Positions 581 to 44,716 of a stretch of 64,000 nt of DNA are shown piece by piece. The notes under the pieces are model-generated. The model saw only the letters and a list, made by a program, of their open reading frames with translations. It was not told the DNA's origin and did not search any database. Position 1 is the stretch's first letter. Every line of letters begins with the position of its first letter. Made by a program: the position numbers and the translations under genes. The stretch spans positions 50,220-114,219 of the IMG/VR virus record IMGVR_UViG_3300033153_000868. One strand, written 5' to 3'. The stretch comes from a virus.

Positions 581-605
581 GAGTTAAGTTTATTTTCTTA
601 ATCCT
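574..605. terminator. Candidate bidirectional terminator hairpin at the convergent junction
   Basis: AGGAT-AAGA at 574-582 pairs with TCTT-A-ATCCT at 596-605 (nine pairs, one bulged base, 13-base loop). The hairpin overlaps the stop codons of both converging genes. Flanking T or A tracts are modest, so termination strength is uncertain. Confidence 0.4.
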
Positions 606-1003
606 TTATGGTTATCAATTCTATCTAGAATTTTATTGAGTTCTTCTGTTTTTATTAAACCTGCCATTGAAGCATTCTTTAAAGCACTTATAAGTTGTAA
701 GATCATAAAAGGAACTACAACTACTTCTGATAGCCAACCTGTTCCTGCAAAGCCTCTTTCTACCATAAGAACAACCGTGAGTATAGCTATCCATACTGCC
801 GTGTTTCTGGTTATTCTTAATGCTTTATATGTTTTAAAACCTTCTCTTTTACAGCCTGCCCAAACTCCAAAAATGCCATCCAACCATAATACTGAACAAA
901 CAGCTAAGTATTGTTCCATGTTTTCCATTGATAAATCAAAAAAGTACGTACATAAATACGTACAAAATGCTGTTATGCTCACTATGAATAATTTAGTTGT
1001 CAT
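590..1003 (-). CDS. Holin, Phage_holin_4 (toxin secretion/phage lysis) type
   Basis: A 137-residue protein with a hydrophobic N-terminus (about residues 1-22) and further hydrophobic segments at about 33-48, 70-82 and 90-106. The arrangement W-L-D-G-I-F-G-V-W-A-G followed by a charged patch KREGFKTYKALRITRN, then a second hydrophobic pair and a charged C-terminal helix (EELNKILDRIDNHKG), matches the pattern of the TcdE/Phage_holin_4 family. Holins form holes in the inner membrane at the end of infection. It is the last gene of the minus-strand late block, where a lysis gene is expected. No separate endolysin is visible in the window; one may lie elsewhere. Family assignment rests on pattern, not alignment. 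Confidence 0.7.
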   Translation of the reverse strand: MTTKLFIVSITAFCTYLCTYFFDLSMENMEQYLAVCSVLWLDGIFGVWAGCKREGFKTYKALRITRNTAVWIAILTVVLMVERGFAGTGWLSEVVVVPFMILQLISALKNASMAGLIKTEELNKILDRIDNHKGLRK

Positions 1004-15800: not shown

Positions 15801-18800
15801 GCAATGCATCCATTGATATAGGATAAACCGTTTCTCTAGATTTAGCATATGCAACTTGACCACCCCCGGCTACTAAGTTTATATTAAAAGGAAGCTCCTT
15901 AGAGTCTGCCATAAAATATGAAGGCTCACTACCTATATTTAAATTATCAAATGTTTGTACAATTAATGCATTTATTGCAAACGCTCTGTGCACTTTCTCT
16001 AGTGCTTCAGCTTTTTGTTCTTTGTTTAATCCTTTTTCTGCTAGTATAACATTGCTTGCTTGTTCTCTAGTCATAGATCTAGGATCTATAGGACTGTTTG
16101 TACGTTGATCTCTAATTAAAAAAGATTCATTGTTTATATAAGCAAAAATTCCTTCCTCACTATTGGATGGTTCAATGCCCATCTCAACTAGTTTTATGTT
16201 AATACTATCACGTAAATCAGATGTAGCTGCTCTTATACCAATGACGTATTTACTTACTAATCTATCTATTAATGGGTTTGCTTCTTTATATATTTCACCA
16301 TCTCTATTTTTAGCAACATAAGCACCTGTATTGTTACCGCCATCAGAAGTTCTCATAACAACCAATTGCAATCCTGCTATTTCTTCAGGAGAAAGCAAAC
16401 TAAGAATAGCATTATATCTTTCTATTGCTTTAGCATTATCAGTACCCACACCACCTTCAGTATAGTTTACATGAGGATAGAATGAAGTTAAATCTTTTAA
16501 TTGAATCTTAGTTACTGTATCCGGAATCAAGTTAAATGTAGTTTCTTCTAAAGTAAACTTGCCATTAAACTCACCTTGTGGAATAAACAAAAACTTTCTT
16601 TCTGAAATAGGACCTGTATTATCAGATTCTTTAATTACTTTAAGCTTTTGATTTTCTCCATACTTTTTAGAAAACCTTGGATCTTGAACAACTATATATT
16701 TTACACCATCTTTGTATACTATTTGTCCATATGTTAATCCATCAACACCATCAAAACTAAATGGAGTTGTGGAGTCTACTAGATTTGCATTCAAAGATTC
16801 TAATGCTTGTTTAGCTGTTTTACCTTGTCCAGATAAAAATACTCCTTGTACTGATTTAAAATTTGTATCTATAAAGTCTAAGATATCATCTGATAACTCA
16901 TTCCCTTTTTTATCCAGGAGTTTATACATTTCAACAATTTCTCCTGTTTGGTTATCTACTACTGATATCTTATATATATCTGCAGTAACACCTTCTTTAT
17001 AGAAAACTCTTTGAGGTGTATCTTCTAGCGCTTGCCCTTCTTCTAAACTAACATCCTTACTTTCAACAATATCAGACATTTCAACACCTGATTGATTTAG
17101 TATTGATGTTATAACAGGGTTGTTAATTAAAACTTCAGGGTCTTGTAGAAACTCTTCAAATCCGGTATCATTTTTTATTACATCTTTTTCAAGCGGATTG
17201 ATAAACTCTAATATGCCCTCAACATTTACTTCAGGTTTTCCTGATGCCCAAACCTTTTTTATAGCATTAACAACATTTCTAATATTCACTGCTTCTGCAG
17301 TATTCATCCATTCAGTGCTATCTAAAATAGGCTGTCCTAATCTTGCTTGTTTTGCTCTATATTTATTATAACTTCTTTTTAAAGCATTGACTAATAAAGG
17401 GCTATTAACACTTACATCAATTTTAATATCTATTCCCGCTTTATCTAAAAGCATATCTAGTGCAGATCTAGTTTCTTCACTTTCTTCAATAGATATTTCT
17501 TCTTCTGTTTTTACTTCTTCAGGTTGAGTGCTTTCTGCTCTAGTTTCTTTATAAACGTTTAGGTGACTTTGAATTTGTTTAAATAATACTGAATGTACTT
17601 CTGGTACAACCTTACCATTATCATCATAGAAGTCCTGTAAAAATGTTACATTACCTGTTTCCAAAAACATTTTTGTTTGTGAAATAGCCGGGTATACGCC
17701 CATTTTACCTAACTGATTTATTAATTCATTTGCCTCAACAATACTTACATACTGCTTTAACATTGCTTCAGTTATCTTAGAACGCTGATTATAAATCTCT
17801 TTGTTTACTTCGTATTGTCTTTGTTGAATCTCAGAAAACTTTTCTGGATTTTGCATGTATTGAATAGCTTTATCATATACACGTGCTCTTCCTTTTAAAG
17901 CACCGTAGTCAACAATTTGCTCAAGAGCTGCATCTATTTTTGATTCATCAGCAAATGTACCAGCAGCAGATGCCATGAATCTTACATAGTTTCTAAATTC
18001 AGTTCTAAGCTTTCCTTTTAAAAGTTTGTTTCTTTTAAAGGTTCCATTCTTAAATCTATTCTTTGGATCAGTAATGATTTTTTGAATGGCTTTTAGTCTT
18101 TTTATTTTTTCTTTTTTTGTTTTATTAGATTCTCCAATACCTTTATCTGAACCTTCAGTTGCAATAATCTCAAGGTTAAGCATATCTATTTCATTCTGAA
18201 TTGATTTTTCATCAAGCAAGTTTGTTATATCATTTGCTGACATTTTATCAAATAGCGGATCAGATTGTAATTTAGTGTAGATACTATCTGCTCTTTCTAA
18301 TGCTCTTGTAAATCCATCATTAGTAAACATATATAAATAACGCACATGTTCATATGCTTCTTCATTTAACATTTCTCTAATGTATTCTCTTTGTTGAGTC
18401 TTAGGATTAAATTTATTTTTGTTAAAAGGGTTTTTATATTTATCCTTGTTTAAATTATAAGACTCCTCCATCTTATCAATACCCACAAGCATATCATTAA
18501 TACGTCCTCTTAGCTTACCATCTTTTTTATCTTTATTAGATACGCCTGGAAATGCTTGAGCTAACTCTTCATCTGTTAATTCTAAAAACCCTCTTAATTG
18601 ATCTTTAAAGTGTTGTGACCCATTACCAGCAAACATTGTATAGTATTGTTGGAATTTAGCTCTATCAGCACTATCAACAAAATTAAATATATCAAGAGCA
18701 CCCTTTATGTTTTCAGCTGCTTCTTTCTGAATCATAAAGTTTAATCTGTTTACATCAAATAAACTAGAAGGATCTATTGCTTGCGCATCCCAAGATTTAT

Positions 18801-27210: not shown

Positions 27211-30012
27211 TTATAATTTTTCTATGTCAGCTCCAGCTGCAATTAGTTTTGCCAACATTCTTGAATCAACTTCTACAGTCTGCTCTCCTCCATTTTGTTT
27301 TTTTGATTTAATCAAATGAATGTAACCATTGTCATCATCATAATAATCAGCGGTCTTAAAATCATATGATCTACCATCTTCACTTGGATCTGAAGTATAA
27401 TAAGGAGCTTTATTTTTATAATTTACATTAACAGGTTGACCTGCATTATATGCTTCAGGATCAATTTGTGATGCTAAGTATTGTTGTAGTTTAAACTCAG
27501 GAAACATTCTAGCACCACTTAAGTTATTGCTATTACCTATAAACAGTGTATCATTTTCAGTAACTCCCATTTGAGACATAATATCTTTTATAGCAGTTTT
27601 ATCATTTTTGTTTTTATCTCTAAATAACTCTATATACTCTTGTAGATAATTATGATCATAGTTTTTAATTCTTTCTTTTCTTTCTTTTCTTGTTTCTCCA
27701 GCATCTTGAGCTTTAGCTAACTCTCTTTTAATAACTCTATCTCTATTTGCTAAGTATGCTTCTTCTCCTTTAGCTCCACCATATGCCATATTACTAAGTA
27801 TGTTATGCTGTGCTTCTGGAGGCAATGCTTTAAAGCCAGGATTGTTTACACCACCACCTTCTTTACTCATATATAATCCTGTTGTTCTATCACCCTCACT
27901 ACCCATTAGTCCGGTGTTTACATCAAAAGTCCCCCTCTTATTAAATGCATCAGTAGTAGTTCCATATAAATTATCTGCAACTACATCACCACGCATATCT
28001 GCATAAGCATTATTCCATTCTTTTTGCTGGTAAATATCATTAAAAATATCAGCTGTTTGAACTGCTGCATTAGATAAATCACCAAATAATCTACCACCTA
28101 TTGTATTTGGAAATCTTAGTAAGCTATTATTAAAATTACTAAGTAAAGCATTAGGACTTTTATCCTTTTTGGCTGTAGGAAGATTTATATCTCCAAATAA
28201 ATCTGCTGCTGTTCTTTGAGCAGGTTGACTATTTGTTTGATCTTCTGTTGGATTTGGATTAAAAGGATTATCAAACTGTTCTTCATATTCTGCATACAGC
28301 TGTTGAGCATTGGCACCACCTCTTGTAACAGGGTCTTGCACCACCCATTCCTTAAAGGTAAGCTTATCATTTGCTACCGGACCTCCAGCTGAACCTGCAT
28401 ACTGTTTAATAGGAAGCTCTGCTCCATACATAGCAAACATTTCTTGAAAGTCTGTAAGATAAGGAAGGCCTTTTTCAAACTTTGGGTCTAAAGGACCATC
28501 ATAGTCTTTTGGTATAAACATATCAAAATTCGGATCATTACCTTCAATAGCATCTTCACCAGGTCCTTGATTAAATTCAGGATCTAAATCTACTTCTTGT
28601 GGATCTTTCTTTTCAGTAGCAGGAAACCTACCTTCAGCAGACATTGGATCTACTTGATATTCAGTTGGTATTTCTTGTCCTTTCTTTTTTAATATAGATT
28701 CAATATATGCTTTTGTTTCTGCTGTTCCTGTTTGCCATTTCTTTAGCAGATCATCAGAGATTTTTTTTACTGCACTTGGAGCATTTACATCATCTAGTAT
28801 TCTATCTGCTTCTGTTTTTATAATATTTCCTAATGCATCTTTCTGTTGATCTAGTTCTGGATTTTCAATTTTAAATTGTTCAAACCATTTAGCTGCAGCA
28901 TTTTTATTTTCATCACTTAAATCAAATTCAAATTTATATTTAGTATCTGCTGCTTTTTGTAATTGATTAGATATTCTTCTTCCTTTCCAATCTCTAAAAC
29001 TGCCATCTTTTACACCATCACCATCTTCATCTTTACCGCTAAATAAATCTTTTCCTACTGAACTAATTGCATTAAGAGTTTTACCCAAATTTAAACCACT
29101 GCTTGTTTTAAATAAAGCAGGATTAAACATAAAAGGATCTGGATTTATATATCCATTGTCATTTTGATCTACATAATCTTTAATTACATTTTTATCTTGA
29201 TCAGTGACTTTTACATTATTACCAGAAATATCTATATTACTATTCTTTGCAGCATTTGCAAAAGAATTCATCATGTCTAAGTTATCTGTGCCAGCAGAGT
29301 TTGATGTTTCTTTTCCTTCTTGTGCTTTAGGTGCATCATGAGTATATCCGGCTTTCTTTAATCTAAGGTGAGCTTCATGATCCCTTGCTCTAATCTTTCT
29401 ATCACCTTTATACATAAAGTGTGGCTCAAATTCACCACCTTCTTCCTTCTTCCATCCAGCAGCATTCTTAGCAAAGTTTGCCATTTTTACTACTGATGGT
29501 GGATAATTATCCGTGTTACTCATAACTTTGTTATAAGCTTCAGATACTGACATACCTCTTGCTTTAGCCCATCTAGTAAACTTACCTTTATTTTCAGGTT
29601 TAATTTCTATACCAGATTTAGCTTGATCAATAGATGTAATATCCATATCCATAGCAGGAGCTTGTTCTTGCATTTCTTCTGCTCTTGCTAGTTGTTGAGG
29701 ATTATTTGTTATTTCTTGAGGGCTGGGTTCTTTTGGTTGTTGCATCCTTTGAACTTCTTCAAACAATTGAATGATTGCTTCCTCTTCATAACCAAGTTGC
29801 ATAAGTGCTTGACCTATAAGATTTTGATCTACTTCTTGTTGCATTAATCCCATTAATACTTCTTGAGGTTGTCTACCCTCATCAATAGATGTAGAAAATA
29901 TTTCAGTTATTTGCATAACTTGTGGATCAACTTGAGGCTGCTGTTGCATTCCAGGTTGACCAGGCATCATTGCACCTCCTTGTTGTTTTACACTTTTTTT
30001 GTTTAAATCCAC
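27211..30012 (-). CDS. Virion cargo-type protein, Gln/Met-rich N-terminus
   Basis: 933 residues beginning at GTG 30012; no better ATG lies upstream in frame. Residues 12-35 are Met/Gln/Pro-rich. Residues about 136-190 hold a compact helical segment (ENKGKFTRWAKARGMSV, then SVVKMANFAKNAAGW) that I recall as a recurrent module in phage structural proteins of this group. It might bind DNA or another virion part. An EF-hand-like DEDGDGVKDG stretch lies near base 29025. The protein is acidic and Asn/Asp-rich. It begins a new unit: an AT-rich candidate promoter element lies just upstream. The 987- and 1152-residue genes follow closely. Confidence 0.62.
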   Translation of the reverse strand: MDLNKKSVKQQGGAMMPGQPGMQQQPQVDPQVMQITEIFSTSIDEGRQPQEVLMGLMQQEVDQNLIGQALMQLGYEEEAIIQLFEEVQRMQQPKEPSPQEITNNPQQLARAEEMQEQAPAMDMDITSIDQAKSGIEIKPENKGKFTRWAKARGMSVSEAYNKVMSNTDNYPPSVVKMANFAKNAAGWKKEEGGEFEPHFMYKGDRKIRARDHEAHLRLKKAGYTHDAPKAQEGKETSNSAGTDNLDMMNSFANAAKNSNIDISGNNVKVTDQDKNVIKDYVDQNDNGYINPDPFMFNPALFKTSSGLNLGKTLNAISSVGKDLFSGKDEDGDGVKDGSFRDWKGRRISNQLQKAADTKYKFEFDLSDENKNAAAKWFEQFKIENPELDQQKDALGNIIKTEADRILDDVNAPSAVKKISDDLLKKWQTGTAETKAYIESILKKKGQEIPTEYQVDPMSAEGRFPATEKKDPQEVDLDPEFNQGPGEDAIEGNDPNFDMFIPKDYDGPLDPKFEKGLPYLTDFQEMFAMYGAELPIKQYAGSAGGPVANDKLTFKEWVVQDPVTRGGANAQQLYAEYEEQFDNPFNPNPTEDQTNSQPAQRTAADLFGDINLPTAKKDKSPNALLSNFNNSLLRFPNTIGGRLFGDLSNAAVQTADIFNDIYQQKEWNNAYADMRGDVVADNLYGTTTDAFNKRGTFDVNTGLMGSEGDRTTGLYMSKEGGGVNNPGFKALPPEAQHNILSNMAYGGAKGEEAYLANRDRVIKRELAKAQDAGETRKERKERIKNYDHNYLQEYIELFRDKNKNDKTAIKDIMSQMGVTENDTLFIGNSNNLSGARMFPEFKLQQYLASQIDPEAYNAGQPVNVNYKNKAPYYTSDPSEDGRSYDFKTADYYDDDNGYIHLIKSKKQNGGEQTVEVDSRMLAKLIAAGADIEKL

Positions 30013-30072: not shown

Positions 30073-33000
30073 TTAAGCTTTATAAAGATGAGTCAAAATA
30101 TAATTTGGTGGAGACATGTTTCCTAACTCTTTTGCATCTTTATAATGTTTTCTATTTAATTTATCATATATACTTTTAGCTTTAGCTTCTTCATTAGTAC
30201 CATCATATATTCCATCCATATAATCTTTATACATCTGAAGCTTTTTCTTTTCTCCACCTATTTTATAATCTGGCATGTACTTACCCAATTGCTGAAATTT
30301 CAAATATTTAGCATTTTTCTTAACTCCTTCAGTATATGTCTTACCGTCATCTTTGCTTGAACCACCCCAATGTTTAGGAAGAGTATTAAACAAATCATTT
30401 CTATCTACACCTTCTCTATTGTTAGCTAAAAATGCTAATCTTAACACAGTAGCAATTGCTGCTTTCTCAGGATCTAACAAATCTTTATTAGATGTTATTC
30501 CAAATTTCTTTAAAATATTTATTTGTTTTTTATTTTCTGGTAAGTTTTTATCTTCTTTAGCTATATTTTCCCATCTAAGCTGAGTTAACCCAACACTATT
30601 ATAATCTTCTTGTGCACTTTTAGAATAAGTTGGTAAGTTAATATTTGATGATTGTGCTGCAATTGCTAATAAAGGAGAAACATTTGATAACTGATTAGTG
30701 GTATCTAATGTAAAACCTTCATATTTTTTAAACACATCAGGAGATGAAGTTACAGTAGGTAACAGATTAGTTGAACCTACTACTGGCAATTGACCTTTTT
30801 TATTTAGGTCAGCAACATATTTGTTGGCTCCTCTTAAAAGGTTACCTGATTTACTATGCGTGTCACCAAAATTAGATTCATTACCATAAATACCAAAAGC
30901 AATTCTAGCAATATCATTATATACATCACTAGGTATACCTGCTTCTTGCATTATTTGTTTCTTGTTATTTACTAAAGCATTTATAAATGGCTTTGTTGAA
31001 TTTTCTTGTTCTTCTTTATCTGATGTATCTGACGTAAAGAAATTACCAACAGATTTTAAACCTCCTGTTTCATTATACACATCTTCTTCAAAAGCCTGTT
31101 GATCAAACACTGGACGTATAGGTTGATAGTTTAATGTGTTTACAGTATAGTTAGATCCTTGTTGAGTTTGCTCACTACCTTTAGAGTCAATATAATTAGA
31201 TGCATATTTTTCTCTATTATCTTTAGACATTTTTAATACAGCTTGTCCATCAACCCATTGGAAATTATTACCTTCATCTTCTGGTAATATATATACTGCT
31301 GTACCTGCTGGCATTCCTAAATCATATAATGCTTGCAAATCACTACATTGACCATTTACACAGCCATTACTTGCTCTATTATTATCTATATTACCATCAT
31401 CAAATAAACCTTTTCTACCTTTTGTGGGTCCATGAATAGCTGTAGCTACATCTATATCAGTACCATCTGTATATAAATTAAATGAAGGAACACCTTTACC
31501 ACCATATTTATCAGGTGAATCAGCATAACTTTCTTTTATATAATACTTACCAGCACCTGTATTTTTATTACCGGCACTCCAATTAGGAATCCACTTACCA
31601 TTTCTTTTATCTTCATCTGTTATTTGTCCATCATTATTCAAATCCCACATTTTTGTTACAGTTAAAGCATCACCTTCATTAGCACCTGTAAGAACTTCAA
31701 AATCTAATACTGGTTTGCCACCCCTCCAAACTTCTAATCTTTTTGTTTTTTTGTTTACTATAACATAATGACCATTTGGATCATTAACCATTTGTGATTT
31801 TTTTATAATATCTTCATCAGATGAATCATTAATATTTCTTCTATCCTGATCCAACAGCTCAACATCTTGCCAAGTTTCTTCAATTTCATCTACTGGTTCA
31901 TATGAATCTTGAGGTATCCTTAGTTCTTGATTAACAAAAATTTCATTAATATTAGATATATCATTTTCTTGTGCTAACTTTCTTACTGTTGTACCATATT
32001 TAGTTGCTATTCTTCCAAGAGTATCACCAGACTTTACATCATAAAAAGCATATTTAGTTTTACTCTTTGGTAATTTTATTTCTTGATTTATTGAAATCTT
32101 ACTCGGATTAGCTATATCATTTAACTCAGCTATCTCATCTACAGTAGTTCCATATTTATCTGCTATTCTAGTTAAGTTATCTCCAGACTTTACAGTGTAT
32201 ATATTTAATTCTTCTTTTGGTTTTTCATTTTGTTTTTCTGGTTCACGTAAAGGGCCAACAAAAGAAGAGTTTAATTCTGGAAGTTCTTCAACATAATTAG
32301 ATGGCATCCATAATTGACTATAGTCATAACCTTCTTGCTCATTTTCTCTCACAGGTCCAGCAAATTGTTTTTCAGGAAGATCATCTTGATATTTATATAA
32401 TTGCTTATAGTAATCATATGCTTCATCAGTAGTTGTCTTTAGAAAATTTTCCTGTACATTAGGTCTGCCTTCTGTATTTTTATCAAACAAAATCATATCA
32501 ATATAATCTTGAGTTTCTTTAGGTAATCTAGAAACCCATTGAACATCATTATATATATCCAGACCTTCTTCTTTTAATTCATTTAGCAAATCTCTTGTAT
32601 TACCTCTACCCCAGTTATATGCTGCTAGTGTTTTAATCAATCTTACATCTTGATCTTGATTTTCCTTATTTATAAATGATGAGTTATACAATTCATTCAT
32701 AGACCATTCTTGGACATCATGATTTTGTTCAGGATCATATGGATCTATTTCTTTAACATTTTTTGCTTTCTTATAATCTGCTATAAGACTATCTCCTATT
32801 TGACCAAGACCCATATAACCTGCACTACTTTTAGCTTTTGGATTTAAGTTAGATTCAACAAAAGCTTGCTTATACAATAGATTAGGGTTAATACTATTTT
32901 TATTTTCTACCTTTTTATCAGAGTCTTTAGGGATATAGATTCTATCATAAAACTCATATGGTTTTATGGCTGCATTTGCTATACTGTTAAAATCATACTT

Positions 33001-36000
33001 ATCATATATAGAAAGATATTTCTGATCTTTTGCTTTGTCATAACCTACCTCAACTTGAAAATTTTGTAATGGATCAATATTCATAAATTGTTCTGGTGTT
33101 ACTTTACCATCAGAACCATCTTCAGTTTTACTCCAATAATCTTCTTTCATGTAACCCGCTAAGCCATCAACAGTTTCTTTATATCCTATAGGGAGATCTT
33201 TAAAGTCTGATATCATACTTTCTCTATCAAGTATATCATCTGATATTTTATAATATTGCACTCCTTCCTCTTTTGAATTGGTTGGTGAATATTCTGTTTG
33301 CTTTTGTATATATTTTTCTTTAGGATTAAGACCAAGCGCACGTGCCCATGCTTCTTCAGAAAAATCATAATCACCATCAGAATCAAACAAGGGTTTTGTT
33401 GGTTCTGTTATACCCAGTGCATTACCTATTGCACCAAATGCTTCTTTAGTAATGCTGCCAAAACCAGGATAACTTTCAGGTCTTACTTCTTGAAATATTT
33501 TAAATCTAGTTTCAAGATCAAGTTCTGGATTAAGTATGTCCTTAGTTTTTTTACCTAACCAATCATTAAAGCTATCTGCTTTTTCAGCAGCACCTTTTAA
33601 AACTGGTATTACTGCATCATCTAATGTATTACCTCCTCTTTGGTAGAGTTTATTAATTCTTTGCTGTGTATCTATTTGTTTGCTATTGGGTTTCCATTTT
33701 GATGGACCATAATAATCTATTATATCTTCATTGTCTACTCCGCTCATAGCAAGCTTAGCCTTTTCTTCAGAATCATATATTCCTATAGTTCCACCGGTAC
33801 TTATATCACGCACTATAATCCTTCCGTCACCTGTTTTTATAGATACTAATTGACTTTTAGATTTTTTTACAGGTTCTGAAAGTGGAGGCTTATCATTCAT
33901 GTCAAAATCAGACATCAGCTTTTGTAAAGGTTTTAACTCTGGCTTTTCTATAAATTGATGTCCAAGTTCATACCATGCACTTTTAATAGTGTCATTATTT
34001 TTAATAGATGTAAAACTATCAATTTTGTTATTTTCAGCATAATCTGGATAATATTTGTTTATCCATTGTCTAAATACACTTTCATCTACATCAGATGGTA
34101 AGTCTGATAAATTATATTTAATATCATGCGGTAATTTTAAAACAGGCATCTCAGGATATTGATCTGATAAATCAGCTGCTGGATCAAAGTATGGTATATG
34201 TTTTAAGTTACTTTTGTTGCTGACTCCAGGATTTGCACCTACTTTAGCTTTACCATACTTTCCTAATGTTTGTATTGCATTTTGCCAATCCGGATTATTC
34301 TCCTGCCAATTTTCTCTTTCTTTAACTGTATTAAAAGTTGTGTCTTTATATTGATTATACCAAACATCTTTATAAAGTTCTTTTGCTTTTTCTATATCTG
34401 CTATGCTTTGATTTCTTTTATTCAATTCTATCTGATAAGCCTTACGTGCTGCATCATTTTCTAATTGTTTTTCTCTTACTCTTGGGTCAAATATTGATTC
34501 ATATACATCATCCTCATTATATCTAATGTTTACATTTTCATCCGGTGTATAAAATCTATTTAGCACTTCAAGACCAGATTGAGCATACCGTAATTTATCT
34601 TTGCTGTCATCTGCAGATGAAATCTCATTTAATTGATTAAAAATCTCATCATTACTATATACATCCTGTAATTGCATTAATGGATTGTAACCATCTGACT
34701 CTCCTCTGTTTAACTCTGAAGTTCTATCAATTATTTGTTGAAATTTTTCTCTAGTTAATGGCTCAGTCATAGGATCATATATTCCTAGATCTTTTGCTGC
34801 TGACCTAATTGTATTTAATCTAGTTCTAGCTTCAGTAGGATCAGAAACATAATCTCCCCAGGGGCTTCTCTCTATTTCTATCTGTCCTTCTTTTACAGAC
34901 CCATCTCTATTAAAAGCTACTATGGGATTACCATCTGCATCATAGGTTCCATAGCTTGCTATATCAATATTATTTATTATAGGATTTCCATCATCATCAT
35001 ACCCCTCTATATTAACCCTTTCGTCTTCAAATCTTTTAATAGTTTTTTGAGGTATAAGTCTATCTGAATTAAGGTTTTTATATATCTGTATAGCCCTATC
35101 TTCAAGATCGTTTGTTTCTTGGCCAGTAATATAATTATATGCTTGATTTGCCAAAGCAACATAGTTTGGTAAAACTACACTGCTTGGTCTAGTACTTAGT
35201 GAAGCATTTGCTAAAGCAATTTTATCTCCAATGCTTAAGTTATCTTTATATCTTTTTAATGTATCTTTTCCAACTCTATCTCCACTATGGCCTACTTCAT
35301 GTTCAAAAGTGTTTTCATAAACATGCCCTTCATGATCAGTATGTGATGGTTTAAAAAATTCAAGTTCACCATTCTTACTCCAAGATGTTGCACCTACACC
35401 TTCATCTTCGTGTGTATTAGGATTTACTATTATAGGTACGTTTTGTAAATTACCTATTCTACTATTAGTTATAAATTCAGCATCATCATTTGGACCAACT
35501 TCATTTGCTAATATTTTTTTATACATGGGTGAATCTAACCATTGTCTTTGAAATGAATTATCAACACTTTCTTGATTAGGTACAACTCCTTTAATATCAT
35601 TTACTTCACCCCTTAACTGAAATTTAGGTTTCCAAGAACCTTCTCCAAACTTTATAGCAGCTTCTTTATCTGCTCCAAAGTCTATAAGCTCACCTCTTCT
35701 TTTAGCTTCTTCATATGCTTCTTTCCAAGGTTTATTAGACATATCAACCCAAGTACCATCCGGATCTTGGAATAATGTTGGAAATGAAAACCAGTTCTTT
35801 CCATCTAAAGTTTCAGTAGCCATAAGGTGTGTTGACTCACTACCATCAGGATTTTTTCTAGCACCTTGTCTTTTAGGTACTTCAATACCATTTTGAGCCA
35901 TAGGCGTTTCCATTACCATATCACCTGGAAATTGATATTCATTTTCAGGCATCATCATTTGTGAATTACCAAGGTTATCTACACCCATAATAGGAAAGTC

Positions 36001-36159
36001 TACATCTTTCATGCTTATGTTTCCTGACGGAATGAAATTAACCGGATTGGTTTTATCTGGGCTATCATTTCTATACCCATCTACAGATATATATTGTGTT
36101 ATATCTATTAAGAACTCATTTGGTCCTCCTGGTAATCCTATGCTCTTTCTTTTTCCCAT
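30073..36159 (-). CDS. Multi-domain peptidoglycan-active virion protein: metallopeptidase, lytic transglycosylase, two LysM, L,D-transpeptidase, second lysozyme-like domain
   Basis: 2028 residues; ATG 36159 overlaps the nozzle-gene stop by one base (TAATG), so translation is probably coupled. Domains in order: HEVGH at 287-291 (zinc peptidase motif); an EF-hand-like DSDGDYDF loop near base 33375; a soluble lytic transglycosylase-like region with Glu1102 in FVESNLNP followed by SAGYMGLGQIG; two LysM repeats at about 1318-1362 (VKSGDNLTRIADKYGTT) and 1372-1415 (VKSGDTLGRIATKYGTT); a YkuD-type L,D-transpeptidase at about 1460-1620 with His1576 and SNGCVN (Cys1600), containing an EF-hand-like DLNNDGQITDED insert; and a second transglycosylase-like region with Glu1761 in YGNESNF followed by SVGLTQLRW. 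The protein most likely acts on the murein layer during DNA entry. LysM would bind glycan and the transglycosylases cut it. The role of the transpeptidase (resealing, attachment or cutting) is open. Confidence 0.85.
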   Translation of the reverse strand: MGKRKSIGLPGGPNEFLIDITQYISVDGYRNDSPDKTNPVNFIPSGNISMKDVDFPIMGVDNLGNSQMMMPENEYQFPGDMVMETPMAQNGIEVPKRQGARKNPDGSESTHLMATETLDGKNWFSFPTLFQDPDGTWVDMSNKPWKEAYEEAKRRGELIDFGADKEAAIKFGEGSWKPKFQLRGEVNDIKGVVPNQESVDNSFQRQWLDSPMYKKILANEVGPNDDAEFITNSRIGNLQNVPIIVNPNTHEDEGVGATSWSKNGELEFFKPSHTDHEGHVYENTFEHEVGHSGDRVGKDTLKRYKDNLSIGDKIALANASLSTRPSSVVLPNYVALANQAYNYITGQETNDLEDRAIQIYKNLNSDRLIPQKTIKRFEDERVNIEGYDDDGNPIINNIDIASYGTYDADGNPIVAFNRDGSVKEGQIEIERSPWGDYVSDPTEARTRLNTIRSAAKDLGIYDPMTEPLTREKFQQIIDRTSELNRGESDGYNPLMQLQDVYSNDEIFNQLNEISSADDSKDKLRYAQSGLEVLNRFYTPDENVNIRYNEDDVYESIFDPRVREKQLENDAARKAYQIELNKRNQSIADIEKAKELYKDVWYNQYKDTTFNTVKERENWQENNPDWQNAIQTLGKYGKAKVGANPGVSNKSNLKHIPYFDPAADLSDQYPEMPVLKLPHDIKYNLSDLPSDVDESVFRQWINKYYPDYAENNKIDSFTSIKNNDTIKSAWYELGHQFIEKPELKPLQKLMSDFDMNDKPPLSEPVKKSKSQLVSIKTGDGRIIVRDISTGGTIGIYDSEEKAKLAMSGVDNEDIIDYYGPSKWKPNSKQIDTQQRINKLYQRGGNTLDDAVIPVLKGAAEKADSFNDWLGKKTKDILNPELDLETRFKIFQEVRPESYPGFGSITKEAFGAIGNALGITEPTKPLFDSDGDYDFSEEAWARALGLNPKEKYIQKQTEYSPTNSKEEGVQYYKISDDILDRESMISDFKDLPIGYKETVDGLAGYMKEDYWSKTEDGSDGKVTPEQFMNIDPLQNFQVEVGYDKAKDQKYLSIYDKYDFNSIANAAIKPYEFYDRIYIPKDSDKKVENKNSINPNLLYKQAFVESNLNPKAKSSAGYMGLGQIGDSLIADYKKAKNVKEIDPYDPEQNHDVQEWSMNELYNSSFINKENQDQDVRLIKTLAAYNWGRGNTRDLLNELKEEGLDIYNDVQWVSRLPKETQDYIDMILFDKNTEGRPNVQENFLKTTTDEAYDYYKQLYKYQDDLPEKQFAGPVRENEQEGYDYSQLWMPSNYVEELPELNSSFVGPLREPEKQNEKPKEELNIYTVKSGDNLTRIADKYGTTVDEIAELNDIANPSKISINQEIKLPKSKTKYAFYDVKSGDTLGRIATKYGTTVRKLAQENDISNINEIFVNQELRIPQDSYEPVDEIEETWQDVELLDQDRRNINDSSDEDIIKKSQMVNDPNGHYVIVNKKTKRLEVWRGGKPVLDFEVLTGANEGDALTVTKMWDLNNDGQITDEDKRNGKWIPNWSAGNKNTGAGKYYIKESYADSPDKYGGKGVPSFNLYTDGTDIDVATAIHGPTKGRKGLFDDGNIDNNRASNGCVNGQCSDLQALYDLGMPAGTAVYILPEDEGNNFQWVDGQAVLKMSKDNREKYASNYIDSKGSEQTQQGSNYTVNTLNYQPIRPVFDQQAFEEDVYNETGGLKSVGNFFTSDTSDKEEQENSTKPFINALVNNKKQIMQEAGIPSDVYNDIARIAFGIYGNESNFGDTHSKSGNLLRGANKYVADLNKKGQLPVVGSTNLLPTVTSSPDVFKKYEGFTLDTTNQLSNVSPLLAIAAQSSNINLPTYSKSAQEDYNSVGLTQLRWENIAKEDKNLPENKKQINILKKFGITSNKDLLDPEKAAIATVLRLAFLANNREGVDRNDLFNTLPKHWGGSSKDDGKTYTEGVKKNAKYLKFQQLGKYMPDYKIGGEKKKLQMYKDYMDGIYDGTNEEAKAKSIYDKLNRKHYKDAKELGNMSPPNYILTHLYKA

Positions 36160-39100
36160 TATCTTTGTGATAGTAAAAGTTTAGTATTATTAAGTCTAAG
36201 CAGCATTTTTCTGTTGCCTGATACATTCCTACGTAAAATAACATTATTAGAGTAGTGTCTAAACTTCTTACGTTCCGTTTGACTTTTACCGTAATTAATG
36301 TTAGTTTGATTTAAAGGTCTAATATATCCATTACATGATGTGTCAAATATTGGTTGTTCTGCATTTGTAAACTCACCTCTATCATTAGTCACATCCCAGA
36401 ATTGATTAAATCTAAATTTATGTTCTACTTTAGAAACTAGTATTTGTATACCATTAAATCCAATAGAAGGAAAATCTAAATTAGTCCAAGGGCTGTTAAC
36501 CGGTTGTGGATTTAGTAATAGTAAACCTGATGTTTGATCATTATTATAAATAATAGAAGCATCAAAGTTAAAATCTAAATCTTCCCATTTATCTCCACCA
36601 CACATGTTGTATTGTGGATCTCCTTTATATACATAAGTTTCTAATTGATATTCAAAACTTCTTATGGTATTAACCGCTTGTCCAGTATTAGATATCAAAT
36701 CTATTTCCCATGGGTAGTCTTCACCATAATAATTTGCAAAAGAGTCACATCTTACATTGTGTCTCCAAAAACCACCCACTTTATAATTAGGCTGTAAAGA
36801 ATCATAATAAAAATAGTTACACTGCTTAGGGTTTGATTGAACAAAATCTGGATTTCCAATCTGATAAAGTAAAGGTGGTGTATCTGGACATTCACCTGTC
36901 TCAGTTAAAACAGAACCCGGTACAGTAGAAGGTGGACATTCACATGTAACTTTCCTACATATCGGTCTTTCATTTTCTAGATCACTACATGTTCCACTAG
37001 CCTGATCATATACATTTCCATTTGATGCATCTGGATAAACTAATGTATATCCTGTTGGACATTCACAAACAAAATCACTACCACATATACTTGATGTTAT
37101 TTCTTGAGCAACAACATCCCAATTAGAAATAGGATAATTTGCATTTATATTAGATTGAATCCCATATATATAAGCACTAGTTGTTGATCCAGCTGTACCA
37201 CTAGTTATAGTAATATTTTGACCATATTGACAAACTATATTGTTTAAAGCTGCACTTTGAGGTTGACCGGGTCCTCCTGGATAAGGTGAATTAACTCCAC
37301 AAAATACAGTATACATAAATTGAAAATTAGGAGCAGCATTACTTACTGTTTGAATTGTTGGAGATTGCAAATTACATTGAGGACCTGGGTTATTACCAGT
37401 ATCTGTAACAGTAATAACAATTCTTCTATAGCTTGGATCATTTTGTCTTGCTGGATAATTTGCTGCTAAACTTGATGATCCCGTTTGTTGAGCTAAACTA
37501 ATTGCCTGGTTCATACCTGCAGCTGTTGCAGTGTTACCACCATACCAATTATTTATGTACCAAGTTTGTACATTAGCAGAACTAACATTATCTGACATTG
37601 AAACAGGGCTAATAAATGCTCCATTTCCAGTTGTCCAACTTCTTTGTTGATTATTACCAGACCAACTTGTAAAACCAATTTGCATAGAACCTCCGTTTAA
37701 TGCATTTTGTATTTCTGGTTGATCAACAAAAGACATCACCCATTGTAACTGTGCAAAAGCTCTAGTCCCATTGTTTTGTGGGTTACCCGTACTACCAGAA
37801 GTATCCATTGCTACTACAATATCAATAAGACATGCTTGAGGACCTCCCGATATAATTGAGTCACGGTTATCTACAATAACTTCTGCAAGTTCTGTTGTAT
37901 TAATTCCTATTTCACATAAACCTGTACTAGGATTAAAATTATAACCCGGAGGACATTGCGGAACAGTTGTCTCAACAGTCTTTGTAGTAAAGAAGTGATT
38001 TATACTTGGTAAAGCTAACTCAGGATGCCAATCATGAAAAGATATCCATGCTTTAGATTTTGGGTCATAACTAATAGTCCATGAACAATCATCAAAATAT
38101 ATTGGATCACCAATATCAATACTTACTGGCACTCTTGCCTCACCTCTTATCTCTATTGGTCTAACTGGTCTATCAACAAATGTTGCTTGACCAATATAAT
38201 CAGGTTTTAATTGATAATCTTTTTTCATAAAGTAGACTACATCATCTACTGAATCATACATTACTTGACATCCTACTCCTGCTACAGGATTATCTGTCCA
38301 TTGTGTATTTTCTGAACTTGGAAATTGTTTTATAAATCTAGAAGGTAAATATTTAGCAAACCACCATTTCATTCCGTTATTAGATATAGGATCTAAACCT
38401 TTACCTCCATACTGAAATATTTTACCTTGTTGTTGAGATATAAAGAATAATCCAAGTGGTGTATTAATAACACCTCTTAAACTCTCACATGAACCATATT
38501 CATTTGATATGTCTGCATTAGCTACATTTTGAAACGGTTGACTAAATAAACCTCCATCACCTATAGTAAGCTTTGTATCTAATTGAGTTTTCAGTGTATC
38601 AAGACCCTGAAACATTTGTGGAGATAAGTATGGGAAAAATACTAATGCACCACTTTTGTTTATAGGTTTAATTACACTTACTTCATTTTTAAAATCTTTG
38701 TAATTGTTATTTAAAAATACTCTCCAATAATCTCTTTTTGATTCTTCTTGCGCTTGTAATGAATAAATTAATCTTTTTGGATAACTAACAAAACAATTTG
38801 CTGCAACATAGGGATCATAATCTCTAGGTTGAATTTGACCAAAAGATGACATTTGAGTAGGGAATCTACTTGGACTTAATGATTCATCATACTTGTAAAA
38901 ATTATCATCTTTTTCTATTCTTGCATGAAAGAGCTCATTTAAATCATTATAATCATATACATTATAGATTCTTTTTTTAGGTTCATCTTCCCAATCTCTT
39001 TGATCTAAATTTACTTCTGATTCAACATAAAAATCTAAGATTCCATTTACATGAGAATAAATATATGCAAATGCCATAGACAATGCAGGATTAGGATCAC

Positions 39101-42100
39101 TACCATTATTAAATATACTACCCCAAGAGGTGTTTGTTGAATTACTTGTTCTATCTAAATAAAATAAATCATTTGGCATCAATGCTGTAGCAGCATTTGA
39201 ACTACCTAATCCAAGAGTAACAAACTTTTGTGCTAAAGGTGTTAAATCAAATCTTTGTGAGTTTAACCAGTATCTTGGATATGGTATATTTACATATAAT
39301 GAATAATCAAAAGTATAACCATCAGGTTGACCTAATAAAAATCTTGTAAAAATAGGCATTATGGTTTTTTCAGTATATCTACCTATAAATGTGTCTCCAC
39401 TAAAAATTGGATCACTAGTATACATATATTGATTTGGTAATGTTGAATCTAACAATTGAATGCAAGATCTCATTGGTATTTGTTTTATACCATCTAGTTG
39501 ACCATACTGATTATCAAAATTAAATTTAAGAGCACCATAGTATGCAGATATATTACTTTTTCTTGCTTGTTTATATTTTTGAAAATATGAGTTACTATGT
39601 GGTGCAGGGTTTGAGTTTTGATATACTCCAGCTGAGCTTAATGATACATCTAATGATCCACCTATAGTATATCTTGATTTATCTTTTACATCAGGATCAG
39701 TAAGACTTTTTTCTAAACTTACAGCTACTGTAGAAGGTCTAAATAAATTATTAATTTTATAGTTACCATTATCAAATGTCTGAAATGATTGTCCAATATA
39801 GTTAGAGTCTGAATTTTTAATTCTCCATAAACCATTTGTTTGCTTATTAAAATTACTAAAGAACCCAAATGAATTGTGTTTTAAGACAAAACTATTTGAT
39901 GACTGCATGTTATATATTAGCTCTAAAAACTCATTACCTCCAGCTGCTATATTAGCTTTAGAAGTTTGAGCTGACATCCATATTTTTAAAAATATAGGTA
40001 TTGATGAAAAGTTGTTATCTGATGTCCATGCTATTTCTTCACTACCACCACGCATACCTGGCAAATTACCTATAGCTTGTGATAAACCCATCTGAATTTT
40101 TTCAGTAGCATAATTAGCAGCACCACCCACCCATAAGTCTGCTACACCAGTAGCTGAATCTAATAAAGCTTCAAGAAGTACTGATATAACTGATTGACCA
40201 GTATTAGCAGCAACATTTGCTAAAGAATATGCTGCTTGTGCAAAACCTGGTTGATTACCAATACCAGCTAATCCTCCAAAGGATCCTGACTGTGATGTCA
40301 TATTACCAGCAGCACCAACCCTTCTAACATTTTTAGTACCCCTTACTTGTCTTATTGCATAACCTAATCCTATAACTCCAGATATTATAGCTGCACCATT
40401 TCTTAATAATTTAAATTGAGGATGATCCTCGGATGGTTGAAATGTTCCACTTGCACTACCTGATAACTGACCGTATATTTTAGTTTCATATGCATTCAAA
40501 AAAGGTTTAGTAAACATAAGCTCTGGTGAAGAAAAAGTAAAAACTTTTCTTGAATATCCACTTGGCTCACCATTAATATCTGGTTCATCTCCTAATGCTT
40601 TATAATCATCTAATGATTCACCAAATGAATGAACACCGTCAGTTCTATTTAGTATATTATTTCCGCCTTTATGGAAATATACATCTGGTCTTAAATCATT
40701 ATATGGATAATTAGGATATAAACCTTGTACATCTCCACCAATTAAATTTTCTGCATTTGGTACAGTATACTTACGCATGTTTCTAAATAAACCTTTTCCT
40801 AAAATAGATTTTGCACCTAATCTAGATCCACGTAGTATTTCATAACCAACTACATTTTCTATGTAAGATCCATCATTATATTTAGGTCTCCCAATATTGC
40901 TAAACTCAACCCCTAGTATATTTATTTCGTCTCCATTTGAGCTTGTTAAATGCAATGGAGAAGTATTACCTCCTATTGATTCATCAGGCATTTTATGATG
41001 CCTTATTGGTTTACCACATAAGTCACCCCATATATCTGGTCTATTTGATGGATAAAGTTCTGTTGATTCCCAATACCCCATTTCACCTCTACCAGTAATT
41101 TTAGTTTCATCAGGTAAAGCGGTTATTGCAGTAGAAGTAATTGAAGCTGTATTGTATACTTTAAAAAGAGGATCTCCAGTTGGGTTTAGTACATTATTAC
41201 CATTTATAATTTCGTTCTCCATTGTCCCATTATACATTTCAGGTGCTCTACCTGGTATATGATATGATGAAGATCTTTCTCCTGTGTTATATATCCATCT
41301 TATAAAGAATGCATATTGTTCATCACGCAATAACCCTGTTCTATTACCGCCTTTAGAATAATATGTAGATGGTACAGAATTAATTACCCAATTTGTTTTT
41401 ATTTCATTTGCAATAGGTTGATAATTAAAATCAAATTGTTCTGTTGGTCCTTGTCTTATTAACCAATCATTAACCACAAACATAGATTCAGACTTTTCAT
41501 AAGCTGGACTTCTAAGAGGTATCAATTTTAAATCTATAGCTGATAATGACTCGTCTATAAAGTCAATGTTTATTGTGCTTACTTGAGTACTATATAAACC
41601 AATTCTTTTTGCTGAGGTTTGCCCTTGATTTCTTCTTAATATAACTAACTCAAAATAATCATAGTCTAAATCTAAATTAGAAAAATTTATGTCCAATGAT
41701 CCTCCAGTTCCTTCATGATTCCATAGTGTCTGAATATTAGATATACCTATATAATCAGTTACTCTTTGTTCATTTTCTGTATAGCCTACAAAAACTTGAT
41801 AAGCACCATTAGCCAACATTCCGCCATCAATAGACTTTTCTAAAGTAATGCAGGGTGTATCTAAAAGAGGTGCTAACCTTATTTGCTCACAGTCTAATGA
41901 TTTTGGTTCAATAATTTCATATTCTACACAGTCAGAACCATCTATATCTGGACCAGATATTTGAATTTTTTTCCAAGGTATATCATCTATATTTAGAGCT
42001 CTTGATGGATTGTTTGCATCATCCCAATATACTTCCCATGTACAATCAAAATTTTCTTTTGCTGCACCAACAATTAAATGCTTTTTACTAAAGTTTAAAC

Positions 42101-42446
42101 AAGGATCATTAACTAATGTAGTATACTTACATTCGCTGTCATCAAATCTACCTATTTCAGAACTAACGTTATCTGTAGAAAATACAACCCATTCATCACC
42201 ATATCTATGTATAGCACCTATAACAGTATAAGGTATGACACCACATGATAAATTTGAAGGCTCATTACCAATCATTCCTAGATCACCATCTTCAGAATTA
42301 TTAGCTGCATTTCTTGCATGCCACCATGCTTGTTGTCCTTCAAATGAAGGAGCAACATCTTTGTTCATCCCTTTAGTAAACGTATTTATATTTACTGATG
42401 ATGAACCAGAACTTTGTGGTTGAGATGGATTTTTCTTTTTAGCCAT
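36159..42446 (-). CDS. Tail nozzle-like protein with an embedded von Willebrand factor A domain
   Basis: 2095 residues, ATG 42446. The N-terminal NTFTKGMNKDVAPS followed by ARNAAN resembles the start of podoviral tail nozzle proteins (T7 gp12 / P22 gp10 type, crAss-like muzzle), which form a beta-propeller collar on the tail tip. It directly follows two neck-type genes, as expected for that role. Residues about 1540-1740 are a VWA domain: VVAMDTSGSTG with the MIDAS DxSxS at 1548-1552, then alternating strands and helices. Cys-rich stretches follow (CPPGYNFN before the VWA; CECPTGYTL and CECPPSTVPG after it), looking like short EGF-like or disulphide-bonded spacers. The C-terminus ends with many Arg/Asn residues. 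A metal-dependent adhesion domain in a nozzle protein suggests a part in host contact. Nozzle assignment is moderately sure, VWA assignment strong. Confidence 0.78.
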   Translation of the reverse strand: MAKKKNPSQPQSSGSSSVNINTFTKGMNKDVAPSFEGQQAWWHARNAANNSEDGDLGMIGNEPSNLSCGVIPYTVIGAIHRYGDEWVVFSTDNVSSEIGRFDDSECKYTTLVNDPCLNFSKKHLIVGAAKENFDCTWEVYWDDANNPSRALNIDDIPWKKIQISGPDIDGSDCVEYEIIEPKSLDCEQIRLAPLLDTPCITLEKSIDGGMLANGAYQVFVGYTENEQRVTDYIGISNIQTLWNHEGTGGSLDINFSNLDLDYDYFELVILRRNQGQTSAKRIGLYSTQVSTINIDFIDESLSAIDLKLIPLRSPAYEKSESMFVVNDWLIRQGPTEQFDFNYQPIANEIKTNWVINSVPSTYYSKGGNRTGLLRDEQYAFFIRWIYNTGERSSSYHIPGRAPEMYNGTMENEIINGNNVLNPTGDPLFKVYNTASITSTAITALPDETKITGRGEMGYWESTELYPSNRPDIWGDLCGKPIRHHKMPDESIGGNTSPLHLTSSNGDEINILGVEFSNIGRPKYNDGSYIENVVGYEILRGSRLGAKSILGKGLFRNMRKYTVPNAENLIGGDVQGLYPNYPYNDLRPDVYFHKGGNNILNRTDGVHSFGESLDDYKALGDEPDINGEPSGYSRKVFTFSSPELMFTKPFLNAYETKIYGQLSGSASGTFQPSEDHPQFKLLRNGAAIISGVIGLGYAIRQVRGTKNVRRVGAAGNMTSQSGSFGGLAGIGNQPGFAQAAYSLANVAANTGQSVISVLLEALLDSATGVADLWVGGAANYATEKIQMGLSQAIGNLPGMRGGSEEIAWTSDNNFSSIPIFLKIWMSAQTSKANIAAGGNEFLELIYNMQSSNSFVLKHNSFGFFSNFNKQTNGLWRIKNSDSNYIGQSFQTFDNGNYKINNLFRPSTVAVSLEKSLTDPDVKDKSRYTIGGSLDVSLSSAGVYQNSNPAPHSNSYFQKYKQARKSNISAYYGALKFNFDNQYGQLDGIKQIPMRSCIQLLDSTLPNQYMYTSDPIFSGDTFIGRYTEKTIMPIFTRFLLGQPDGYTFDYSLYVNIPYPRYWLNSQRFDLTPLAQKFVTLGLGSSNAATALMPNDLFYLDRTSNSTNTSWGSIFNNGSDPNPALSMAFAYIYSHVNGILDFYVESEVNLDQRDWEDEPKKRIYNVYDYNDLNELFHARIEKDDNFYKYDESLSPSRFPTQMSSFGQIQPRDYDPYVAANCFVSYPKRLIYSLQAQEESKRDYWRVFLNNNYKDFKNEVSVIKPINKSGALVFFPYLSPQMFQGLDTLKTQLDTKLTIGDGGLFSQPFQNVANADISNEYGSCESLRGVINTPLGLFFISQQQGKIFQYGGKGLDPISNNGMKWWFAKYLPSRFIKQFPSSENTQWTDNPVAGVGCQVMYDSVDDVVYFMKKDYQLKPDYIGQATFVDRPVRPIEIRGEARVPVSIDIGDPIYFDDCSWTISYDPKSKAWISFHDWHPELALPSINHFFTTKTVETTVPQCPPGYNFNPSTGLCEIGINTTELAEVIVDNRDSIISGGPQACLIDIVVAMDTSGSTGNPQNNGTRAFAQLQWVMSFVDQPEIQNALNGGSMQIGFTSWSGNNQQRSWTTGNGAFISPVSMSDNVSSANVQTWYINNWYGGNTATAAGMNQAISLAQQTGSSSLAANYPARQNDPSYRRIVITVTDTGNNPGPQCNLQSPTIQTVSNAAPNFQFMYTVFCGVNSPYPGGPGQPQSAALNNIVCQYGQNITITSGTAGSTTSAYIYGIQSNINANYPISNWDVVAQEITSSICGSDFVCECPTGYTLVYPDASNGNVYDQASGTCSDLENERPICRKVTCECPPSTVPGSVLTETGECPDTPPLLYQIGNPDFVQSNPKQCNYFYYDSLQPNYKVGGFWRHNVRCDSFANYYGEDYPWEIDLISNTGQAVNTIRSFEYQLETYVYKGDPQYNMCGGDKWEDLDFNFDASIIYNNDQTSGLLLLNPQPVNSPWTNLDFPSIGFNGIQILVSKVEHKFRFNQFWDVTNDRGEFTNAEQPIFDTSCNGYIRPLNQTNINYGKSQTERKKFRHYSNNVILRRNVSGNRKMLLRLNNTKLLLSQR

Positions 42447-42460
42447 AATATATTATCTAT

Positions 42461-43399: not shown

Positions 43400-43410
43400 T
43401 ATTATAATTT

Positions 43411-44085: not shown

Positions 44086-44090
44086 GTCTT

Positions 44091-44657: not shown

Positions 44658-44668
44658 ACAGTTATATT

Positions 44669-44680
44669 TATAATTTACAA
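44669..44680 (-). promoter_or_regulatory. Variant of the AT-rich upstream element
   Basis: The minus strand reads TTGTAAATTATA, one base different from the recurrent TTGTATATTAT. It sits 12 bases before the 188-residue gene and directly behind the phosphoesterase terminator. Candidate promoter element; the overlap with the terminator T tract makes it less certain. Confidence 0.3.
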
Positions 44681-44714: not shown

Positions 44715-44716
44715 CT

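Follow-up and report, generated by a model that had tools for sequence, protein, structure and literature searches.

What use would a phage have for a single protein that joins a murein-cutting enzyme, murein-binding repeats and a domain of the L,D-transpeptidase type? The question is posed by P0001, a predicted protein of 2028 residues encoded in a viral DNA stretch of 64,000 nucleotides (the window), which spans positions 50220-114219 of the IMG/VR virus record IMGVR_UViG_3300033153_000868, a record of 114,219 bases. A first-pass annotation, made from the letters of the window, had speculatively pictured P0001 as a machine that cuts the wall and reseals it, or that anchors the particle covalently to murein. 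Comparison with its relatives points elsewhere: P0001 is probably a virion-packaged, ejected chassis with an exchangeable wall-opening payload, in which the domain of the L,D-transpeptidase type (YkuD) would most likely serve to open murein.

An intact gene for a predicted wall-active protein

The gene can be read on the minus strand only, the plus strand of positions 30073-36159 being riddled with stop codons. Copies of P0001 occur in three further IMG/VR contigs, with lengths of 2028, 2028 and 2027 amino acids (aa) and identities of 100%, 99% and 100%, respectively, and the domain order SLT-LysM-LysM-YkuD is seen again in a relative of 46% identity (L005, the same as L094); the protein is therefore not an assembly chimaera or artefact. 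In Pfam searches, the lytic-transglycosylase domain SLT (E 1.8e-15, 56.9 bits against a cut-off of 21.3), the two LysM stretches (E 9.1e-31) and the YkuD domain (PF03734, E 5.3e-10, 40.5 bits against a cut-off of 23.4, profile positions 2-146 of 146) were each found above the curated cut-offs. The motifs named in the first-pass annotation all lie where it had placed them, namely HEVGH at residues 287-291, Glu1102, His1576, SNGC at residues 1597-1600 and Glu1761. Its picture of one protein with murein-cutting, murein-binding and YkuD domains holds. That YkuD must cross-link is not supported, since in sister phages this slot is taken by domains of the hydrolase type.

Conserved ends enclose a variable wall-enzyme slot

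A scan of viral contigs with the N-terminal tag of P0001 (N-tag) returned 127 relatives, of which 80 were kept; 62 were non-redundant, and the 56 with a stop codon inside the locus form the counted set, in which L037 is identical to P0001. The labels NlpC, SLT2, C2, FPT and metallo are our own names for profiles seeded from these proteins. The counted relatives span 409-2357 aa. All 56 carry the N-tag by selection, the set having been found with it, and 51 carry the C-terminal tag (C-tag); the gene immediately upstream encodes a muzzle homologue in every one of the 64 loci examined, which comprise the 56 and 8 further YkuD loci.

What lies between the tags differs from one relative to another. 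Our own profiles placed YkuD in 14 of the 56, C2 in 17, LysM in 21, SLT in 18 and an amidase-like domain in 10; the Pfam YkuD profile matched 13 at E<=1e-3. YkuD is followed by C2 in every protein that has it (14/14), and in 13 of these C2 stops 1-13 residues short of the C-tag, an SLT domain standing in between in L105; LysM accompanies YkuD in 13 of the 14 and SLT in 9. The 10 amidase-like relatives also carry a peptidoglycan-binding (PG-binding) profile and an unclassified SLT2 domain, and in each of them 26-42 residues separate the end of the amidase-type module from the C-tag; the Pfam matches of the amidase-like domain to Amidase_6, in L078 (E 8.6e-4) and L070 (E 0.026), both lie below the cut-off. 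Elsewhere, the position ahead of the C-tag is held by SLT at a distance of 34-35 residues (L047, L079, L080 and L082) or by a Phage_lysozyme2-like stretch, again below the cut-off (L083, E 0.0064). When five other proteins of the class labelled 'other' were scanned, L064 proved to have Amidase_2 about 50 residues ahead of the C-tag together with LysM, L051 had ART-PolyVal, and three yielded nothing. YkuD and the amidase-like domain never share a protein (0/56; P = 0.04 by chance, a modest result on its own).

The distribution of YkuD was also followed on a tree of the muzzle proteins, computed by a quick method (LG+G4) from the first 700 well-filled columns of 55 of the 64 rows; 58 rows were long enough, 3 more were dropped as gappy, and the long branches L099, L107 and L085 are placed with uncertainty. 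The presence of YkuD changes 11 times on this tree, or 7 times when only well-supported branches are trusted; shuffled labels gave a mean of 14.1 changes, with 18 of 500 shuffles as low as the observed value. At 99% support, the YkuD-bearing L147 groups with L109 and L093, which have SLT and no YkuD. Since slot content differs among phages with very similar muzzle proteins, recombination of the slot is suggested.

Genome context and probable location in the virion

By its homologous terminase, portal, ring, muzzle and cargo/RNA polymerase genes, found in order, the phage is a crAss-like podovirus. Phage records matching its terminase number 133, and in 93 the match extends over 80% or more of the query; among them, the 15 rows listed show 24-26% identity and mostly belong to crAss-like 'cr' phages, and the others include by name phages of Bacteroides (30), Flavobacterium (29) and Cellulophaga (5). 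These relatives suggest a host in Bacteroidota. The portal protein corresponds to phrog_6547 (E 5e-88), and the DNA polymerase is likewise a strong PHROGs match. The muzzle homologue matches gp43 of phage phi17:2 at E 1.7e-25 and crAss001 gp44 merely at E 0.003, which belongs, with gp40 (E 0.001) and gp43 (E 0.05), to the weaker crAss001 matches in the window, each weak alone.

The order of muzzle gene, P0001 gene, C1 gene and, further on, RNA polymerase genes resembles that of crAss001. The P0001 gene sits directly between the muzzle gene and the homologue of cargo protein C1, whereas in crAss001 gp45 follows gp44 directly, with no annotated gene in between. P0001 thus shares the operon region after the muzzle gene with the crAss001 cargo proteins C1 (gp45) and C2 (gp46), which are expected to help form a channel (PMC10172136).

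Further evidence on location comes from Cellulophaga phages. Residues 24-91 of the N-tag match gp40 of phage phi4:1 (41% identity; E 1e-5 by tblastn and 8e-19 by profile), and they also match phage phi17:2. In phi4:1, gp40, gp41 and gp42 are annotated as structural from experimental tandem mass spectrometry (MS/MS) proteomics. The gp41 gene lies between those of gp42 and gp40 and encodes a phage tail lysozyme domain (PF18013, E 5e-32), and gp42 is the muzzle counterpart, since it is the counterpart of phi17:2 gp43. In gp40 itself (L115:5971-8658, 895 aa), the N-tag heads an otherwise unrelated virion protein; a likeness of gp40 to cargo protein C1 outside the tag was considered and dropped, as neither blastp nor phmmer gave such a match. 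The N-tag could serve generally in packaging or docking.

Judged by hydropathy only, no segment of P0001 is strongly hydrophobic (maximum 19-residue Kyte-Doolittle mean 1.15), and Sec export is therefore unlikely. Besides a holin, the phage genome encodes a separate endolysin (PG_binding_1 and Amidase_2). The operon position, the counterparts in phi4:1, the hydropathy and the separate endolysin and holin make cargo packaging the best reading; with the operon position and the MS/MS-annotated counterparts as its grounds, packaging of P0001 in the virion appears likely.

Features of the YkuD domain

A further scan for YkuD gave 31 loci, and a search of bacterial genomes with an alignment as the query gave 2. 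The alignment of 24 YkuD domains comprises 23 from phages and one from a metagenome-assembled genome (MAG), in 18 clusters at 90%. The upstream His and the motif [ST]-[NMYH]-G-C-[IV]-[NR] are kept in all 24. SNGC in place of SHGC, singled out by the first-pass annotation as a variation to test, is nothing unusual: SSGC is the form in E. coli LdtD, and SHGC itself occurs among the aligned domains only in the phage relative L148 (SHGCIR), so that an active-site anomaly was ruled out. In full, the E. coli motifs are SHGCVR in LdtB, SSGCVR in LdtD and SIGCYA in DpaA. The residue two positions after the catalytic Cys (Cys+2) is Asn in 22 of the 24 domains and Arg in two (L105 and L148).

In a profile search of the PDB with 22 rows of the alignment, the best three matches were the L,D-transpeptidases 3zg4, 6fj1 and 1zat (E 0.0036-0.03), the E of 0.0036 for 3zg4 being a whole-sequence value whose two stretches are each insignificant alone; the next matches began at E 0.65 and were unrelated. 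This search was informative only with 14 and 22 rows, and the first small YkuD alignment returned nothing relevant. All three structures are presumably of Enterococcus faecium Ldtfm, a cross-linker. With these enzymes, LdtB and LdtD, the phage domains have in common the Pfam YkuD family and the conserved Cys and His, 3zg4 being the best solved match; they differ in an EF-hand-like insert, a second cysteine, a mostly longer His-Cys spacing, and fusion to wall-enzyme domains and phage tags. The domains showed no particular closeness to E. coli DpaA; the profile scores were weak throughout (DpaA -2.0 bits against 7.0 for LdtB and 1.3 for LdtD).

The spacing between His and Cys is 24 in 18 of the 23 phage domains, compared with 16 in LdtB and 19 in LdtD. 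The EF-hand-like loop of 12 residues is present in 12 of the 14 YkuD domains of the counted set and nowhere else in the 56 proteins, which total 76,513 residues; overall it occurs in 13 of 23 phage YkuD domains, or 9 of 17 clusters, counts that are only descriptive because the pattern was composed after viewing the sequences. Cys1600 and Cys1605 are the sole cysteines among the 2028 residues of P0001. A second cysteine lies downstream of the catalytic one in all 23 phage domains (at +5 in 21 and at +3 in 2), 12 of the 23 proteins have just these two cysteines, and the second is absent from L121, the one MAG relative. The YkuD domain is under strong purifying selection: dN/dS is 0.08-0.16 against five relatives, four of which share one near-identical YkuD cluster, and is below that of SLT, C2 and the N-tag in every pair. 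Against two more distant relatives (L063 and L039) it is 0.39-0.40.

Neither a tblastn search of 50,697 phage records with the YkuD domain (E<=1; E<=0.1 for the L148 query), a set from which the records nearest the window's genome are possibly missing, nor a single-sequence scan of bacterial genomes returned a match. The MAG relative L121 (L121:5515-6612) is a 365-aa gene with a YkuD domain 29% identical to the phage type, on a contig of 482,733 bases in a Gastranaerophilales MAG; it could be a cellular source or phage-derived. A second contig of bacterial label, L120 (WLWP01000004.1, 114,697 bases, in a Pseudomonadales MAG), bears the same chassis protein and a muzzle gene and is therefore probably a mis-binned phage contig.

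The C2 domain and the HExxH region

The region after YkuD, which had been described as a second transglycosylase-like region, keeps its key residue and gains no family. Glu1761 and the residues of S-x-G-x-T-Q (S1855, G1857, T1859 and Q1860) do not vary among the 17 aligned relatives, a pattern that suits a lysozyme-like fold without proving it, and no relevant match was found in Pfam and none in PDB profile searches. The predicted model has a pLDDT of 58.9 and gave no Foldseek match at E<=0.001; its best VIA match, a weak one, was to the phage endolysin 9ms6 (Z 3.7, rmsd 3.8, 114 aligned), the next being unrelated (Z 2.8). A union of C2 with the SLT2 domain of the amidase-type relatives in one family was also considered and rejected (profile probability 41%, E 2.8e-4; 16% with more rows). 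The HExxH motif is present as annotated; Pfam gave no significant match for this region, the best being Tox-MPTase4 at E 0.11.

What the YkuD domain would do at entry

In the proposed route, P0001 would be packed in the particle of a crAss-like podovirus and ejected via the tail at entry. The N-tag and C-tag would form the chassis, perhaps docking in the tail or muzzle region, and the stretch between them would be an exchangeable wall-opening payload. In P0001, SLT would cut the glycan, the two LysM repeats would bind it, YkuD would attack the stem peptide at an L,D bond, and the lysozyme-like domain would come next. YkuD might open or loosen murein as an L,D-carboxypeptidase, as an L,D-endopeptidase or by exchange with a free D-amino acid. 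Opening rather than rebuilding is the most likely direction because sister phages fill the slot with hydrolase-type domains. The YkuD family includes transpeptidases, carboxypeptidases, endopeptidases, amidases, and protein-attaching and -detaching enzymes (PMC12729407), and hydrolytic activities of the fold are also described elsewhere (PMC9638812, PMC8263019).

Several points weigh against the wall-opening chassis. The same slot is no proof of the same chemistry, and the amidase-like and lysozyme-like assignments fall under the Pfam cut-offs. On the muzzle tree, 23 of 55 rows are of the 'other' class, in which the YkuD, amidase-like and SLT profiles all fail to match; clustering of the YkuD label is mild, and the parsimony changes may be gains or losses alike. 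The MS/MS support comes from phi4:1 rather than from the phage itself, and beyond its tag phi4:1 gp40 has no YkuD and no significant match to crAss001 or window proteins. Additionally, Asn at Cys+2 was examined as a decisive mark of a hydrolase and rejected. The phage domain would share the YkuD fold with the hydrolytic enzymes DpaA and Tlde1a, and it has Asn at this position as in many DpaA-like proteins (PMC8263019, PMC9638812), and Asn or Ala there has been tied to DpaA-like enzymes without the transpeptidase Arg (PMC8263019); yet the residue does not decide the mechanism, because the L,D-transpeptidase 3zg4 has Asn as well (SHGCIN), as does the LdtMt2 motif HGChN (PMC5445500).

Among the alternatives, it is unlikely that SLT makes an opening through which the tail passes, with YkuD adding 3-3 cross-links round the hole afterwards to limit leakage. 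True 3-3 cross-linkers do exist in the YkuD family (PMC12729407), the sole close solved matches are L,D-transpeptidases, and Cys and His are conserved in 24 of 24 domains, but sister phages carry hydrolase-type domains or SLT alone at the same operon position, without YkuD, so that resealing is not essential for the entry route. Covalent anchoring, in which YkuD would join an ejected or tail protein to meso-DAP of murein and fix the conduit, as LdtA/B/C do for Lpp, is quite unlikely as well. YkuD enzymes are known to attach proteins (PMC12729407), and the adjacent LysM, found with YkuD in 13 of 14 proteins, would hold the enzyme at the wall; YkuD is missing from some relatives, however, and anchoring is therefore not essential either. 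An acceptor sequence did not turn up, though no search aimed at one was made. Nothing specific to resealing turned up, nor was anything found specifically in favour of the cut-and-reseal or covalent anchoring model with which the annotation of this gene began.

The cysteine pair and the inserted loop invite a further idea. As speculation, the pair could be a redox or metal switch and the EF-hand-like loop could gate the enzyme by calcium. P0001 might then be an environment-gated virion L,D-transpeptidase, active only outside the particle under the control of calcium and/or the Cys1600-Cys1605 switch, bonding the conduit to murein or stem peptides round the hole, and one of several interchangeable warheads; this version too is quite unlikely.

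It is improbable that, once ejected, the YkuD and putative zinc-peptidase regions have the host as their target, in the manner of 'polyvalent' proteins, and not the entry hole. The type VI secretion system (T6SS) effector Tlde1a is such a delivered carboxypeptidase of the L,D-transpeptidase (LDT) or YkuD fold, which harms the wall (PMC9638812), and relatives on the same chassis also carry ART-PolyVal (2/56) and the putative metallopeptidase DUF6782 (2/56). The setting of YkuD among wall domains (C2 after it in 14/14, LysM in 13/14, SLT in 9/14) argues against such a role, as does a cytoplasm that holds no murein. Finally, a catalytically dead YkuD fold kept for murein binding is very improbable: the wide His-Cys spacing would suit it and the AlphaFold2 model (8 similar sequences, mean pLDDT 40.8) gives no usable active site, but His and Cys are invariant across 24 domains in 18 clusters and selection on the domain is strongly purifying.

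Other features of the protein and the window

The features of P0001 and of other genes of the window are collected in Table 1. The FPTLFQ-type module near the N-terminus of P0001 stands at residues 767-862 in the relative L043 (L043:2993-3280), as a mobile piece within the protein. The 4607-aa protein resembles both gp50 and gp47 of crAss001 and may have arisen by fusion of two cargo proteins of the RNA polymerase type. Within the tail-gene block, positions 44717-46039 encode a 440-aa DNA repair exonuclease-like protein (phrog_704, E 1e-43). Positions 36001-50400 of the G000 record (L022) hold a spore photoproduct lyase-like gene and genes for both ribonucleotide reductase subunits.

Table 1. 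Positions in the window of P0001, its domains and motifs, and other genes
Feature	Position	Strand	Basis
P0001, putative cargo-type multi-domain protein, 2028 aa	30073..36159	-	single ATG open reading frame, 2028 codons
N-tag, residues 7-91 (GLPGGPNE...GDMVMETPMAQNG), conserved chassis element	35887..36141	-	alignment; viral-contig relatives
FPTLFQ-type module, residues 91-181	35617..35889	-	in 12/56 relatives
Putative zinc-peptidase region, residues 198-529, HEVGH 287-291	34573..35568	-	motif; no significant Pfam match
SLT lytic-transglycosylase domain, residues 1083-1233, Glu1102	32461..32913	-	Pfam 1083-1196; own profile 1090-1233
LysM repeat 1, residues 1321-1364	32068..32199	-	Pfam
LysM repeat 2, residues 1373-1416	31912..32043	-	Pfam (two stretches) and own profile
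YkuD (L,D-transpeptidase-type) domain, residues 1440-1640 (Pfam 1464-1624), His1576, Cys1600	31240..31842	-	Pfam, PDB profile
EF-hand-like loop DLNNDGQITDED inserted in YkuD, residues 1506-1517	31609..31644	-	pattern match
SNGCVNGQC, residues 1597-1605 (catalytic Cys1600 and Cys1605)	31345..31371	-	sequence
Lysozyme-like candidate domain C2, residues 1690-1975, Glu1761	30235..31092	-	alignments; after YkuD in 14/14
C-tag, residues 1976-2025 (YDKLNRKHYKDAK...NYILTH)	30085..30234	-	51/56 relatives
Muzzle protein homologue (crAss001 gp44 type), immediately upstream gene	36159..42446	-	phrog_37948, E 1.6e-43
Cargo protein C1 (crAss001 gp45) homologue, next gene	27211..30012	-	blastp, E 4e-7 over 88 residues
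4607-aa virion RNA polymerase-type protein (gp50/gp47 similarity)	6889..20712	-	blastp, E 1.5e-15, 6e-8
gp49-like RNA polymerase-associated cargo protein	1096..6873	-	blastp, E 8e-26
Holin	590..1003	-	PF05105, E 3.4e-6, 27.5 bits against a cut-off of 22.2; phrog_199

Relation to known systems and significance

Polyvalent or injected multi-domain phage proteins form a category of long mosaic proteins. The P0001 family resembles them in its length, its mosaic build and its interchangeable domains, which include ART-PolyVal and putative metallopeptidases in the chassis relatives; unlike them, it has wall enzymes that recur directly ahead of the C-tag. With virion-associated lysins (VALs) and tail lysozymes such as phi4:1 gp41 (PF18013), it shares a wall-enzyme gene beside the muzzle gene, and P0001 itself has a peptidoglycan-degrading domain, as VALs do, its SLT match lying above the cut-off. 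Large multifunctional virion lysins are already known, and VAL catalytic domains are described in the same source as usually glycosidases or endopeptidases, carboxypeptidases being rarely made by phages (PMC6116005). P0001 differs from VALs in its YkuD domain, which stands in a variable slot ahead of a conserved C-tag.

YkuD in phage lytic proteins is not new. PhaLP has YkuD in 10 entries and lists it among peptidase domains (PMC8310338), and one gut endolysin combines GH25, 13 choline-binding repeats and YkuD (PMC13284279), although that protein is an endolysin of another architecture. In the open-access papers searched, none was found that pairs crAss-like phages with a transpeptidase, and among the papers listed none names a virion L,D-transpeptidase in the title or the start of the abstract. 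As far as these searches reach, the novelty lies in a crAss-like cargo locus that encodes YkuD, which here accompanies SLT and lysozyme-like domains and occupies a variable slot flanked by two conserved tags.

No viruses in the human gut are said to be more abundant than the crAss-like phages (PMC10172136). In the available part of the text of that paper, which reports the crAss001 structure, the words 'peptidoglycan', 'transglycosylase' and 'lytic' do not occur. How these phages pass the cell wall has apparently not been worked out, and the P0001 family offers a concrete candidate for the entry enzyme. Because relatives fill the slot with different wall enzymes, the chemistry of entry can be tested directly by comparing natural variants. 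Should the YkuD member truly make bonds rather than break them, phage entry would have a step of a new type.

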